NCBI GenBank assembly: GCA_029858505.1
Contig: JAOUEW010000009.1
Span: 1-64,000 of the forward strand
DNA length: 64,000 nucleotides
Source: Deltaproteobacteria bacterium
GTDB lineage: Bacteria > SAR324 > JACQKK01
Direction of reading: 5' to 3'
The notes beneath the pieces are model-generated. The model worked only from the letters and a program-made list of their open reading frames with translations, made no database searches and was not told the DNA's origin. A program made the translations under genes and the position numbers. Shown here piece after piece: positions 3,357 to 47,851 of the stretch. Within the stretch, counting starts at the first letter, position 1; each line of letters opens with the position of its first letter.

Positions 3357-3506
3357 AGAGAAATAGAGAAATCGTAACATCTCCTTCAATCTTGTCCCCG
3401 CCATCCCCGCTACTCAAATCCCTCGGATATTGAATACCTCCAGTCGGCTTGTGAAGGCTAGACGAAAGCAAGTGCATCTCTCGCCGGACTCGATTTGTCC
3501 CCAACA

Positions 3507-3697
3507 GCACCCCTCCCCTGCCCTGCGGGCATCCCCTCCCCTTCGTGGAGGGGAATACAACTCGAAGCCGAAAAGTTATGTGCTTGCTTCCTTCCGGTTT
3601 CACTAACTGAACAAATGTAAAGATTAACCGGTGGATTCGAGTATTGTCCCTCCACGAAGGGGAGGGACGGGCGGCGCAAGCCGCCAGGGAGGGGTGC
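3507..3697. repeat. Family A palindromic repeat, tandem copy 1
   Basis: 191 bp from GCACCCCTCCCCTGCC to GGGAGGGGTGC. Each end folds: the left end has GCCCTGCGGGC, the right end has GGCGGCGCAAGCCGCC. Inside, CCCCTCCCCTTCGTGGAGGGG and GTCCCTCCACGAAGGGGAGGGAC flank an AT-richer core containing CTTGCTTCCTTCCGGTTTCA. By eye it is identical to the next copy, joined by the linker TTTACGGGAACAGCAACA (3698-3715). Confidence 0.9.
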
Positions 3698-3715
3698 TTT
3701 ACGGGAACAGCAACA

Positions 3716-3906
3716 GCACCCCTCCCCTGCCCTGCGGGCATCCCCTCCCCTTCGTGGAGGGGAATACAACTCGAAGCCGAAAAGTTATGTGCTTGCTTCC
3801 TTCCGGTTTCACTAACTGAACAAATGTAAAGATTAACCGGTGGATTCGAGTATTGTCCCTCCACGAAGGGGAGGGACGGGCGGCGCAAGCCGCCAGGGAG
3901 GGGTGC
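3716..3906. repeat. Family A palindromic repeat, tandem copy 2
   Basis: Apparently identical to 3507..3697 with a 209-bp period, which points to a recent tandem duplication or to active homogenisation. Confidence 0.9.
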
Positions 3907-7266: not shown

Positions 7267-7325
7267 GAGAAACGGCATCCCCACCCGTAAAACACCTCAC
7301 CCCTGCCCTTCGGGCTTCCCCAACA

Positions 7326-7667
7326 GCACCCCTCCCCTGCCTGCTTCGCAGGCATCCCCTCCCCTTCGTGGAGGGGAACAACTCGCATCCGAAAAGTTAT
7401 GTGCTTGCTTCCTTCCGGTTTCACTAACTGAACAGATGAAAAGAATAGCCGATGGCTTCGAGCATTTGGACCTCACCCCCCGCCCCCCTCTCCCGAAGAG
7501 AGGGGGAGTTCAAAGGCGTTAGGGCGTTGCTTGCTTCCGTTCAGTCTTCACCATCCGAACGGCTGAAGAGAATCACCGGTGGATGCGAGCCATTCCCCCC
7601 TCCCTGATTGGGGAGGGGGGCAGGGGGGAGAGGTGCTGTTGGGATGCCCGCAGGGCAGGGGTGGGGT
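7326..7667. repeat. Composite of family A repeat halves and a CCTCACCCC-type element
   Basis: Starts with a family A left end (GCACCCCTCCCCTGCC, hairpin GCCTGCTTCGCAGGC) and core. At 7470-7513 it is interrupted by GACCTCACCCC...CCCTCTCCCGAAGAGAGGG (half of the element at 47736), then continues with the variant core seen at 3911 and ends in GGCAGGGGTGGGGTG. Looks like nested insertion or recombination between repeats. Confidence 0.7.
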
Positions 7668-43964: not shown

Positions 43965-43980
43965 CCCACCTTTCCCAACA

Positions 43981-44020
43981 ACACCCCTCCCTGCCGCCTT
44001 TCAGGCGGCTGTCCCTCCCC
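43981..44020. repeat. Isolated left arm of a family A repeat
   Basis: ACACCCCTCCCTGCCGCC TTTCA GGCGGCTGTCCCTCCCC, an arm without core, immediately before a full copy. Confidence 0.7.
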
Positions 44021-44023
44021 CAA

Positions 44024-44220
44024 GCACCCCTCCCTGCCGCCTTTTAGGCGGCTGTCCCTCCCCATCGGAGAGGGACAATACGGCTTAGGCCGAGGGGTGG
44101 AGAATAGAATCCGAGCGATGGGTGAGACCGGAAGGAAGCAAGCCGATCACTTTTCGGATGCAAGTTGTTCCCCTCCACGAAGGGGAGGGGATGCCTGCGT
44201 AGCAGGCAGGGGAGGGGTGC
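44024..44220. repeat. Family A palindromic repeat, array of three, copy 1
   Basis: 197 bp, GCACCCCTCCCTGCCGCC to GGCAGGGGAGGGGTGC. Arms form GCCGCCTTTTAGGCGGC and GCCTGCGTAGCAGGC hairpins. Followed by the linker TGTTGCTGTTCCCGTAAA, the exact reverse complement of the linker at 3698, so this array runs in the opposite orientation. Confidence 0.9.
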
Positions 44221-44238
44221 TGTTGCTGTTCCCGTAAA

Positions 44239-44435
44239 GCACCCCTCCCTGCCGCCTTTTAGGCGGCTGTCCCTCCCCATCGGAGAGGGACAATACGGCT
44301 TAGGCCGAGGGGTGGAGAATAGAATCCGTGCGATGGGTGAGACCGGAAGGAAGCAAGCCGATCACTTTTCGGATGCAAGTTGTTCCCCTCCACGAAGGGG
44401 AGGGGATGCCTGCGTAGCAGGCAGGGGAGGGGTGC
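44239..44435. repeat. Family A palindromic repeat, copy 2
   Basis: 197 bp, differing from copy 1 by a single visible base (GAGCG to GTGCG in the core). Period 215 bp including the 18-base linker. Confidence 0.9.
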
Positions 44436-44453
44436 TGTTGCTGTTCCCGTAAA

Positions 44454-44647
44454 GCACCCCTCCCTGCCGCCTTTTAGGCGGCTGTCCCTCCCCATCGGAG
44501 AGGGACGATACTCGAAGCCACCGGTTATTCTTTACATTTGTTCAGTTAGTGAAACCGGAAGGAAGCAAGCCGATCATTTTTCGGATGCGAGTTGTTCCCC
44601 TCCACGAAGGGGAGGGGATGCCTGCGAAGCAGGCAGGGGAGGGGTGC
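44454..44647. repeat. Family A palindromic repeat, copy 3
   Basis: 194 bp with the other core type (CTCGAAGCCACCGGTTATTC, then CAGTTAGTGAAACCGGAAGG), like the copies at 3.5 kb. It ends 18 bases before the stop codon of the DUF559 gene. Confidence 0.9.
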
Positions 44648-44665
44648 TTTTCGGGTGGGATGCCT

Positions 44666-45040
44666 CTATTCGGATTCCAGCGCTTTACTTATTCGTCTTA
44701 ACACTATTTCAAGGTTTTCAGTCACGTCTTCATTGGTAAACCGTATCACTCGGTAGCCCAGTTCTTTCAAATGCCCCTCTCTTCCCTCATCACGTTCAAC
44801 TTGGTTCCCATGAATCCCACCATCCACCTCCACCACCAATCTTTTTTCCAGGCAAACAAAATCCACGATCCAGCAATCTATGGGGTGTTGACGGCGAAAG
44901 TGGACCCCCAATGCCTCTCTACGAAGGGATTGCCATAAAATCCGTTCGGAATTTGTGGGGTTCCCACGCATCTCTAAAACAGCGGGTTTGACTTTCCGCC
45001 AGCGCTTTGGAGTGGTGGTGTGAAAGAGTTCTTTGACCAT
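44666..45040 (-). CDS. DUF559 endonuclease-fold protein
   Basis: 124 residues. ERILWQSLRREALGVHFRRQHPI, then CWIVDFVCLEKRLVVEVDGGIHG with the Asp and E-V-D of a PD-(D/E)XK-like (Vsr-related) nuclease site, and YRVIRFTNEDVTENLEIVL at the end, all typical of DUF559. Cytoplasmic, substrate unknown. It is the only gene in a 2-kb block of family A repeats (44.0-44.65 and 45.07-45.9 kb), close enough for a functional link to be considered. Confidence 0.88.
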   Translation of the reverse strand: MVKELFHTTTPKRWRKVKPAVLEMRGNPTNSERILWQSLRREALGVHFRRQHPIDCWIVDFVCLEKRLVVEVDGGIHGNQVERDEGREGHLKELGYRVIRFTNEDVTENLEIVLRRISKALESE

Positions 45041-45073
45041 AATTTAATCCCATACCATGTTTTCATCCCCAAA

Positions 45074-45270
45074 ACACCCCTCCCCTGCCCCCTTGCGGGG
45101 GCATCCCCTCCCCTTCGTGGAGGGGAAATATATCGAAGCCGGGAAGTTATGCGCTTGCTTCCTTCCAGTTTTTACCAACCGAACGAATGAAGAGATAAGC
45201 CGATGGATTCGAGTATTGTCCCTCTCCGATGGGGAGGGACAGCCGCCTGAAAGGCGGCAGGGAGGGGTGC
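45074..45270. repeat. Family A palindromic repeat beyond the DUF559 gene, copy 4
   Basis: ACACCCCTCCCCTGCCCCC with hairpin CCCCCTTGCGGGGG, core ATCGAAGCCGGGAAGTTATG, CTTCCTTCCAGTTTTTACC, right arm GCCGCCTGAAAGGCGGC and end GGGAGGGGTGC. Two extra GGGGTGC ends follow up to 45299. Confidence 0.85.
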
Positions 45271-45300
45271 TGTTGGGGGGGTGCTTTTGGGAGGGGTGCT

Positions 45301-45430
45301 ATGGTTTTTGTTTCCTTCCGTCCAGTCAATGTTTCCCGAACAGATTCTATTCTCCACCCCTCGGCCTAAGCCGTATTGTCCCTCTCCGATGGGGAGGGAC
45401 AGCCGCCTGAAAGGCGGCAGGGAGGGGTGC
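45301..45430. repeat. Family A half copy with the alternative core
   Basis: Core end matching the copies at 44.0-44.4 kb in inverse sense (GATTCTATTCTCCACCCCTCGG, GGCCTAAGCCGTATTGTCCC), right arm as in copy 4. The left outer arm is absent. Two further GGGAGGGGTGC ends in series follow (to about 45462). Confidence 0.75.
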
Positions 45431-45477
45431 TGTTGGGAGGGGTGCTGTTGGGAGGGGTGCTTTACGGGAATAGCAAC

Positions 45478-45673
45478 AACACCCCTCCCCTGCCCCCTTG
45501 CGGGGGCATCCCCTCCCCTTCGTGGAGGGGAAATATATCGAAGCCGGGAAGTTATGCGCTTGCTTCCTTCCAGTTTTTACCAACCGAACGAATGAAGAGA
45601 TAAGCCGATGGATTCGAGTATTGTCCCTCTCCGATGGGGAGGGACGGGCACCGAAGGTGCCAGGGAGGGGTGC
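45478..45673. repeat. Family A palindromic repeat, copy 5
   Basis: Left arm and core as in copy 4, but the right arm reads GGCACCGAAGGTGCC. Followed by TGTTGGGAGGGGTGC and the linker TTTACGGGAATAGCAACA. Confidence 0.88.
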
Positions 45674-45706
45674 TGTTGGGAGGGGTGCTTTACGGGAATA
45701 GCAACA

Positions 45707-45901
45707 GCACCCCTCCCCTGCCCCCTTGCGGGGGCATCCCCTCCCCTTCGTGGAGGGGAAATATATCGAAGCCGGGAAGTTATGCGCTTGCTTCCTTCCA
45801 GTTTTTACCAACCGAACGAATGAAGAGATAAGCCGATGGATTCGAGTATTGTCCCTCTCCGATGGGGAGGGACGGGCACCGAAGGTGCCAGGGAGGGGTG
45901 C
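45707..45901. repeat. Family A palindromic repeat, copy 6
   Basis: Essentially identical to copy 5. Its end touches the terminator of the Cyc2-like gene. Confidence 0.88.
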
Positions 45902-47735: not shown

Positions 47736-47851
47736 GACCTCACCCCCTGGCCCCCTCTCCCGAAGAGAGGGGGAACTTACTGTTGGTCCGCCTCAAAAGC
47801 CCCTCTCCTCCGGGAGAGGGGCAGATGCCCGCAGGGCATCGGGGTGAGGTC
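47736..47851. repeat. CCTCACCCC-type palindromic repeat
   Basis: Starts GACCTCACCCC and ends GGGGTGAGGTC, with inner CCCCTCTCC...GGGAGAGGGG and ATGCCCGCAGGGCAT arms. A half copy occurs at 7470-7513. A related right half (CCCCTCTCCGATGGGG, GTCCCCGCAGGGGAC) continues to about 47910. 47911-48099 shows nothing further. Confidence 0.75.

Follow-up and report, generated by a model that had tools for sequence, protein, structure and literature searches.

Why does a lone nuclease gene lie in the middle of a dense block of palindromic repeats, and do the two belong together? Bacterial genomes commonly contain REP-like palindromes devoid of the RAYT-linked GTAG tag, for which, to our knowledge, no driver is known; DUF559 is a widespread family 'of unknown function' with a solved structure (3hrl). 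In the window (the whole stretch of 64,000 nucleotides analysed here), a DUF559 gene is flanked on each side by three near-full copies of a ~205-bp palindromic element (family A), the left set being inverted with respect to the right set (Table 1). The original prediction had described at least six repeat copies around a single DUF559 gene, with gaps of 18 and about 35 bp; six near-full and two partial copies were indeed located, the gene product matches PF04480 (Pfam, E=2.2e-32), and the BLAST limits give gaps of 14 bp (stop side) and 34 bp (start side), in agreement with that description. The list of open reading frames held no other convincing gene between the near-full family A copies of the window, and no DDE transposase in the unit.

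Table 1. Family A copies in the window and the two DUF559 genes of the source genome.
Feature	Position	Strand	Method	Remarks
Dispersed family A copy	3502-3697	+		without nuclease gene
Dispersed family A copy	3706-3906	+		without nuclease gene
Dispersed family A copy, partial	7321-7466	+		
Family A copy, partial	43971-44020	-		one arm
Family A copy, near-full	44024-44230	-	BLAST	
Family A copy, near-full	44239-44445	-	BLAST	
Family A copy, near-full	44454-44651	-	BLAST	14 bp from nuclease stop codon
DUF559 (predicted Vsr/EDxHD-fold) nuclease gene	44666-45040	-		124 aa, complete ORF
Family A copy, near-full	45075-45270	+	BLAST	34 bp from nuclease start codon
Family A copy, partial	about 45343-45441	+		one arm
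Family A copy, near-full	45469-45673	+	BLAST	
Family A copy used as query	45697-45901	+		ends AACAGCACCCCTCCCC / GGGAGGGGTGCTGTT pair; internal hairpins per arm
Second DUF559 gene (L001)	C5:168413-168799			between family B copies

The ends of family A base-pair over about 16 bp, each arm contains two internal hairpins, and the terminal tag of the arms in the window is CACCCCTCCC. Thirty matches in the 2.79-Mb genome, one probably duplicated contig included, cover at least 180 of the 205 query bases, and the element folds far better than its shuffled versions (z=-6.3; none of 200 shuffles as good). Because of this genome-wide abundance and this folding, the family A repeats of the window are not a product of chance. 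A perfect stem of at least 5 was present at one of the two arm hairpins in 31 of 36 distinct arm segments (3.8% of shuffled segments), and 19 different 5' strings, the empty one included, occurred at the conserved arm hairpin; a stem kept despite varied sequence is not by itself proof of selection, since strand-switching correction of imperfect palindromes could yield the same pattern. None of the three dispersed copies with both extended ends showed a target-site duplication. Contigs 6 and 11 of the source genome carry family A matches at identical coordinates, which suggests that one stretch was assembled twice.

The window gene is predicted to encode a small endonuclease of the Vsr/EDxHD fold. 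Pfam returned PF04480 and, below the cut-off, PF18741, with no Y1_Tnp (HUH) transposase domain. The window protein has the residues that are invariant over 47 homologues, among them E71, D73, H77 and D84, which we infer to be the EDxHD motif. Its predicted structure (mean pLDDT 84) matches 3hrl, a DUF559-like protein of Neisseria (4.2e-7), and the catalytic domain of the homing endonuclease I-Bth0305I (Foldseek E=7.9e-5 to 3r3p_B); a sequence profile agrees with the latter match (E=1.7e-5), and a PADLOC homing endonuclease model matches as well (E=8.7e-6). The structural match to Vsr was weaker (8.8e-3), and Pfam and NCBIfam gave no Vsr family match by sequence. DUF559 was seldom encountered on plasmids (39 of 72,556 records) or phages (3 of 50,697). 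In the parts of the earlier reports drawn on here, the I-Bth0305I homing endonuclease family is described (PMC3943268), a DUF559 gene is assigned to the EDxHD family (PMC9403480), and the Caulobacter DUF559 protein VsrA is strictly required for a DNA damage response of cells without a cytosine methyltransferase (PMC12907096).

The window lies on contig 9 of the source genome (G000), which harbours exactly two DUF559 genes; both are sandwiched by repeats, yet of different families (A and B). The second gene begins 6 bp after a 173-bp family B copy, and the next copy abuts its stop codon. Gene-less copies of both families occur elsewhere in the genome: a 400-kb sample of the contig bearing the second gene, taken together with the window, yielded 39 non-overlapping matches for family A and 24 for family B, with 13 and 8, respectively, covering at least 85% of the query. 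Some weak A and B matches overlap each other, and the two families are therefore related in layout. A family B array of 120-bp-spaced units without a DUF559 gene (L294 916-1688; G000:C5:220916-221688) resembles the array beside the second gene.

Is this arrangement peculiar to one genome? DUF559 loci were collected by a scan of named genomes (Bacteroidota, Chloroflexota, Cyanobacteria, SAR324, Alphaproteobacteria and others), which gave 79 loci from the best 80 of 262, and from the top of a list for 194 cyanobacterial genomes, which gave 30; being drawn from the top of ranked lists, both sets are biased towards strong family members. For each locus we then scored the strongest repeat shared by its left and right 400-bp flanks, with gene-sized windows from the same contigs as controls, after dropping three of the 79 loci with short flanks. 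A flank repeat of at least 35 bits was found at 40 of 76 DUF559 loci versus 6 of 962 control windows, and at 60 bits the counts were 20/76 versus 0/962, so that the link between DUF559 and repeats across genomes, which the original prediction had left to be checked, was borne out. Four DUF559 loci from the class of the source genome shared flank match and repeat sequence with loci on named SAR324 records (L035=L064, L036=L053, L037=L048, L043=L073), an agreement by which this class corresponds to SAR324. From the comparison of the arms onward we excluded L048, L053, L064 and L073 as duplicates, and the SAR324 set no longer included the weak match L041. Two-sided hairpins with pyrimidine stems (stem of at least 8) flanked 33 of 72 DUF559 loci, 10 of 15 loci of the SAR324 class and 10 of 30 cyanobacterial loci, compared with 1 of 1027 control windows and 2 of 324 control ORFs. 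The arms have a common design, in which a C-rich tag (CCTCACCCC, CCCCACCC, CACCCCTCC, CTCATCC or CCTAAATCCCC) is followed by a hairpin, e.g. CCCTCTCC-loop-GGAGAGGG, and the opposite flank carries the reverse complement of tag and hairpin. On inspection of the DUF559 loci, the hairpin-adjoining tails were C-rich and a shared GTAG tag was absent from them.

A comparably small nuclease of the same cyanobacterial class, Uma2, behaved differently: flank repeats were found at 3 of 30 Uma2 loci versus 23 of 30 DUF559 loci, and two-sided hairpins (stem 7) at none of 30 versus 22 of 30. The top-scoring Y1_Tnp loci, from a list ranked by score, showed flank repeats in 3 of 28 cases and two-sided hairpins in none of 28; having failed as a positive control, they do not calibrate the flank test, and we take these top-scoring matches to be IS200-type transposases rather than RAYTs. 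Physical coupling of DUF559 genes to palindromes extends across phyla, and with the same arrangement in many of them the association is not confined to the source lineage. Gene and repeat are duplicated in tandem at two loci (L050, L168), and in a Neisseria gonorrhoeae record (L142) the DUF559 gene lies between 114-bp direct repeats that are 89% identical and contain a CCCCTCTCCC stretch. Against a partnership stand the 12 of 72 loci without a hairpin on either side and the E. coli DUF559 gene on L141, for which a flanking repeat was not found.

Each locus received a tag label, mechanically assigned and noisy (L135, for instance, was labelled T4 though its tail reads CCTCACCCC), and the labels were mapped onto a tree of 121 DUF559 proteins. 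The 88 labelled loci required 31 tag changes, whereas 2000 label shuffles, each confined to the same phylum, averaged 44.5 changes and never gave fewer than 35; for cyanobacteria alone the count was 8 changes compared with a shuffle minimum of 11. After thinning of near-identical proteins (n=68) there were 27 changes versus a minimum of 29, and 6 versus 7 in cyanobacteria; neither SAR324 (n=11) nor Chloroflexi (n=14) was informative when taken separately. One small, open group of the tree contains proteins with a CCCACCC tag from two cyanobacteria, an Opitutaceae MAG and a Chloroflexi MAG. The kind of end that a repeat carries follows the DUF559 lineage, even when labels are shuffled within phyla.

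The repeats were also counted in whole genomes, with patterns that were written after the loci had been seen and with no correction for phylogeny. Of the SAR324-class genomes, 7 of the 9 whose DUF559 match exceeded the cut-off carried the repeat pattern, as did 6 of the 43 others (Fisher 3.6e-4). In the family to which the window belongs, genomes with DUF559 had 83, 342, 19, 34, 61 and 7 copies and those without had 1, 31, 9 and 4, a weak difference (p=0.067). Among 194 cyanobacterial genomes, either repeat type was present in 100 of 128 with DUF559 versus 20 of 66 without, and among those of at least 3.4 Mb in 93 of 113 versus 16 of 30 (p=0.003). Reversed patterns had no match in cyanobacteria and one in the SAR324 class. 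A generic repeat pattern was found in 24 of 30 further genomes from the 79 loci, with 0 to 315 copies. Relatives lacking DUF559 do not carry these repeats in equal abundance: the repeats are rarer there, though not absent, and their presence without a detected DUF559 in the same 6 of 43 SAR324 genomes (many of them incomplete) and 20 of 66 cyanobacteria counts against a partnership, as do the 28 of 128 DUF559-positive cyanobacteria that lack both repeat patterns.

Palindrome-gene-palindrome units have entered other genes. At seven of the 30 cyanobacterial loci the DUF559 domain is part of a long open frame. In a Type ISP restriction gene, the site between NITDWALERFRERY and ITKLDIFHYTYA holds an in-frame DUF559 with its palindromes, translated as PSPPAPLPQERG and LSPSPAGEGLGVR, in six genomes (G224, G281, G210, G277, G278, G132). 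In two others (G238, G286), the same codon site holds an in-frame Y1_Tnp protein (PF01797, 2e-14 and 1.7e-13), which we read as a RAYT rather than another HUH transposase, with CAAGGGGCTTAAGCCCCTTG palindromes of its own. The site is empty bar a few codons in a 59%-identical homologue in G292 and in three of four paralogues, the fourth having given no left motif (comparison loci L173-L178, L179, L180, L182). Of all the findings, this shared site points most strongly to a RAYT-like behaviour of the DUF559 unit. Other in-frame hosts are MmeI-type, Eco57I-type, HsdS and DUF1156 proteins; in the MmeI types the units were found at three distinct places with respect to the MmeI domains. All eight of the in-frame hosts tested with Pfam were restriction-modification or methylase-like, three of the eight coming from a search with restriction-gene sequence in the query. 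In translation the palindromic arms read as proline-rich linkers (in-frame units at L154, L155, L166, L167, L184, L192, L193). Palindromic elements inserted in frame into genes have been described in Rickettsia (PMC10969869, in the part drawn on here).

Some SAR324 units carry the 3' end of the host gene repeated on their far sides (L035/L064, 36 bp; L036/L053, 76 bp; L043/L073, 43 bp), and at L035/L064 the two coding copies differ synonymously. A long target duplication as a general feature was rejected, as only the 36-bp repeat abuts both unit ends. The Synechocystis plasmid locus L135, where a DUF1156 gene is interrupted and five homologues are intact, was likewise rejected as an exact empty-site case, at ~72% identity and with a variable linker. 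No presence/absence pair was found in Azospirillum, where the seven records with one place covering at least 80% of the query (one of them matching in two pieces) all cover 99-100% of it, DUF559 included, and none of the loci compared offered an empty site at strain-level identity.

Taken together, we consider it probable that the DUF559 nuclease is the cognate partner of the REP-like palindromes around it, in a RAYT-like role with an unrelated hydrolytic chemistry. The partnership advanced in the original prediction has held across phyla, against matched controls, in the comparison of tag with tree, in genome co-occurrence and at a site shared with a RAYT-type element. The nuclease would recognise the folded arms or the terminal tag (CACCCCTCCC in the window) and would cut at one or the other; repair of the break would then copy gene-bearing and gene-less units, so that both multiply and the gene-less copies spread in trans. 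Labour would be divided as between RAYTs and REPs, with the gene present in one or two units and absent from tens of short, non-autonomous ones. Since PD-(D/E)XK-type hydrolases are not known to join strands, completion of the insertion would be expected to fall to the recombination or replication repair of the host. It counts against this mechanism that we know of no strand joining by this enzyme class.

The same enzyme activity could instead make the repeat the target: the palindromes would be spread by something else, the nuclease would cut gene-free repeats, and the gene would be copied in by recombination between flanking repeats. The closest characterised relative being the catalytic domain of I-Bth0305I, the PADLOC match and the tandem duplications of gene and repeat all speak for such homing. 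We nevertheless regard it as unlikely, as a homing gene would be expected to occupy many sites and the source genome has just two genes to 30 near-full family A matches; nor does homing explain what spreads the repeats and why their number tracks the presence of DUF559, and the empty homologues of the in-frame restriction-gene units have no repeat at the site. Another explanation gives DUF559 no role in the repeats at all and supposes that repeat-rich intergenic blocks collect small accessory genes, in line with the 36 of 76 loci below the flank-repeat threshold and with DUF559 genes that lie in other accessory contexts (L133) or lack repeats. The failure of Uma2, another small accessory nuclease, to be embedded in the same class, the tracking of nuclease phylogeny by the repeat tag and the different repeat families of the two genes in one genome make this highly improbable. 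We attach similarly little weight to a domesticated housekeeping function, in which the nuclease would be retained for its benefit to the host, namely the resolution or repair of hairpins, cruciforms or T:G mismatches at the repeat sites: the Vsr-like fold, the requirement for VsrA in Caulobacter (PMC12907096, as above) and the rarity of DUF559 on plasmids and phages agree with it, but it leaves unexplained the units inside other genes and the one nuclease lineage per repeat type. Such a role is compatible with the partner reading and does not exclude it; RAYTs, too, are called domesticated (PMC8266576, in the part drawn on here).

How does the proposed pairing compare with known systems? Akin to REP/REPIN sequences and their RAYT (TnpA-REP) in REPtrons, a short gene is bordered by palindromes and accompanied by many gene-less copies, often as inverted pairs; the enzyme lineage matches the repeat type in both, and a Y1_Tnp unit can occupy the same host-gene site. 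The RAYT is an HUH tyrosine transposase, whereas the enzyme here is a predicted Vsr/EDxHD-type hydrolytic nuclease; the GTAG tag is replaced by C-rich end tags (CACCCC, CTCACCC, AAATCCCC...), and the family A arm has two hairpins. With I-Bth0305I and Vsr the nuclease has the catalytic fold in common and presumably the catalytic residues too, but no intron, intein or DNA-binding extension was seen here and the gene is embedded in multicopy palindromes. MITEs mobilised by insertion sequences are alike in that short, non-autonomous copies bounded by terminal inverted repeats outnumber those that carry a gene, and differ in that the unit here has no DDE transposase and the three copies checked have no short target-site duplication. 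Untagged REP-like repeats and the small dispersed repeats of cyanobacteria are the same kind of sequence, and in the parts of their descriptions drawn on here no partner enzyme is named; PMC3733652, to the same extent, leaves open whether specific proteins go with untagged palindromic repeats.

Our results suggest a widespread, undescribed class of selfish or domesticated mobile repeats, in which each nuclease version has its own repeat type. We found no report of a link between DUF559 and repeats in the literature searched, which omitted most subscription papers and all bioRxiv preprints. A named enzyme partner with several end types would open the origin, spread and marker use of untagged repeats to experiment, DUF559 would gain a likely biological role, and the long cyanobacterial 'DUF559 fusion' restriction proteins would, as our comparisons suggest, be element insertions. 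More tentatively, and with somewhat less than even confidence, we propose a pan-bacterial class of mobile elements that consist of a hydrolytic Vsr/EDxHD nuclease and cognate hairpin ends, spread non-autonomous repeats by break and repair, are the source of much of the C-rich 'CCCTCACCCC...'/'CCCCTAAATCCCC...' palindromes and of the whalefall-1 'RNA' (see below), and add a nuclease domain to restriction-modification genes by in-frame insertion.

The consensus of Rfam whalefall-1 (RF01762) has the same order of parts as these repeats, i.e. a CTCTCC/GGAGAG hairpin, ACAG, a variable hairpin and a GGGTGAGG end. Two stretches of the window matched it (45216-45269, 22.2 bits; 47799-47851, 31.9 bits), all matches being below the Rfam gathering score (best 31.9 versus 37 bits), and none of 52 SAR324 genomes was over the cut-off (3 of 52 at E<=0.001). 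Membership of the window repeats in whalefall-1 was rejected for now on account of these sub-threshold scores, and Rfam microRNA matches, far below threshold, were disregarded. The original description presents whalefall-1 as a noncoding RNA restricted to whale-fall metagenomes (PMC2864571, in the part drawn on here); in light of the shared order of parts, it may instead belong to these repeats rather than being an RNA gene.
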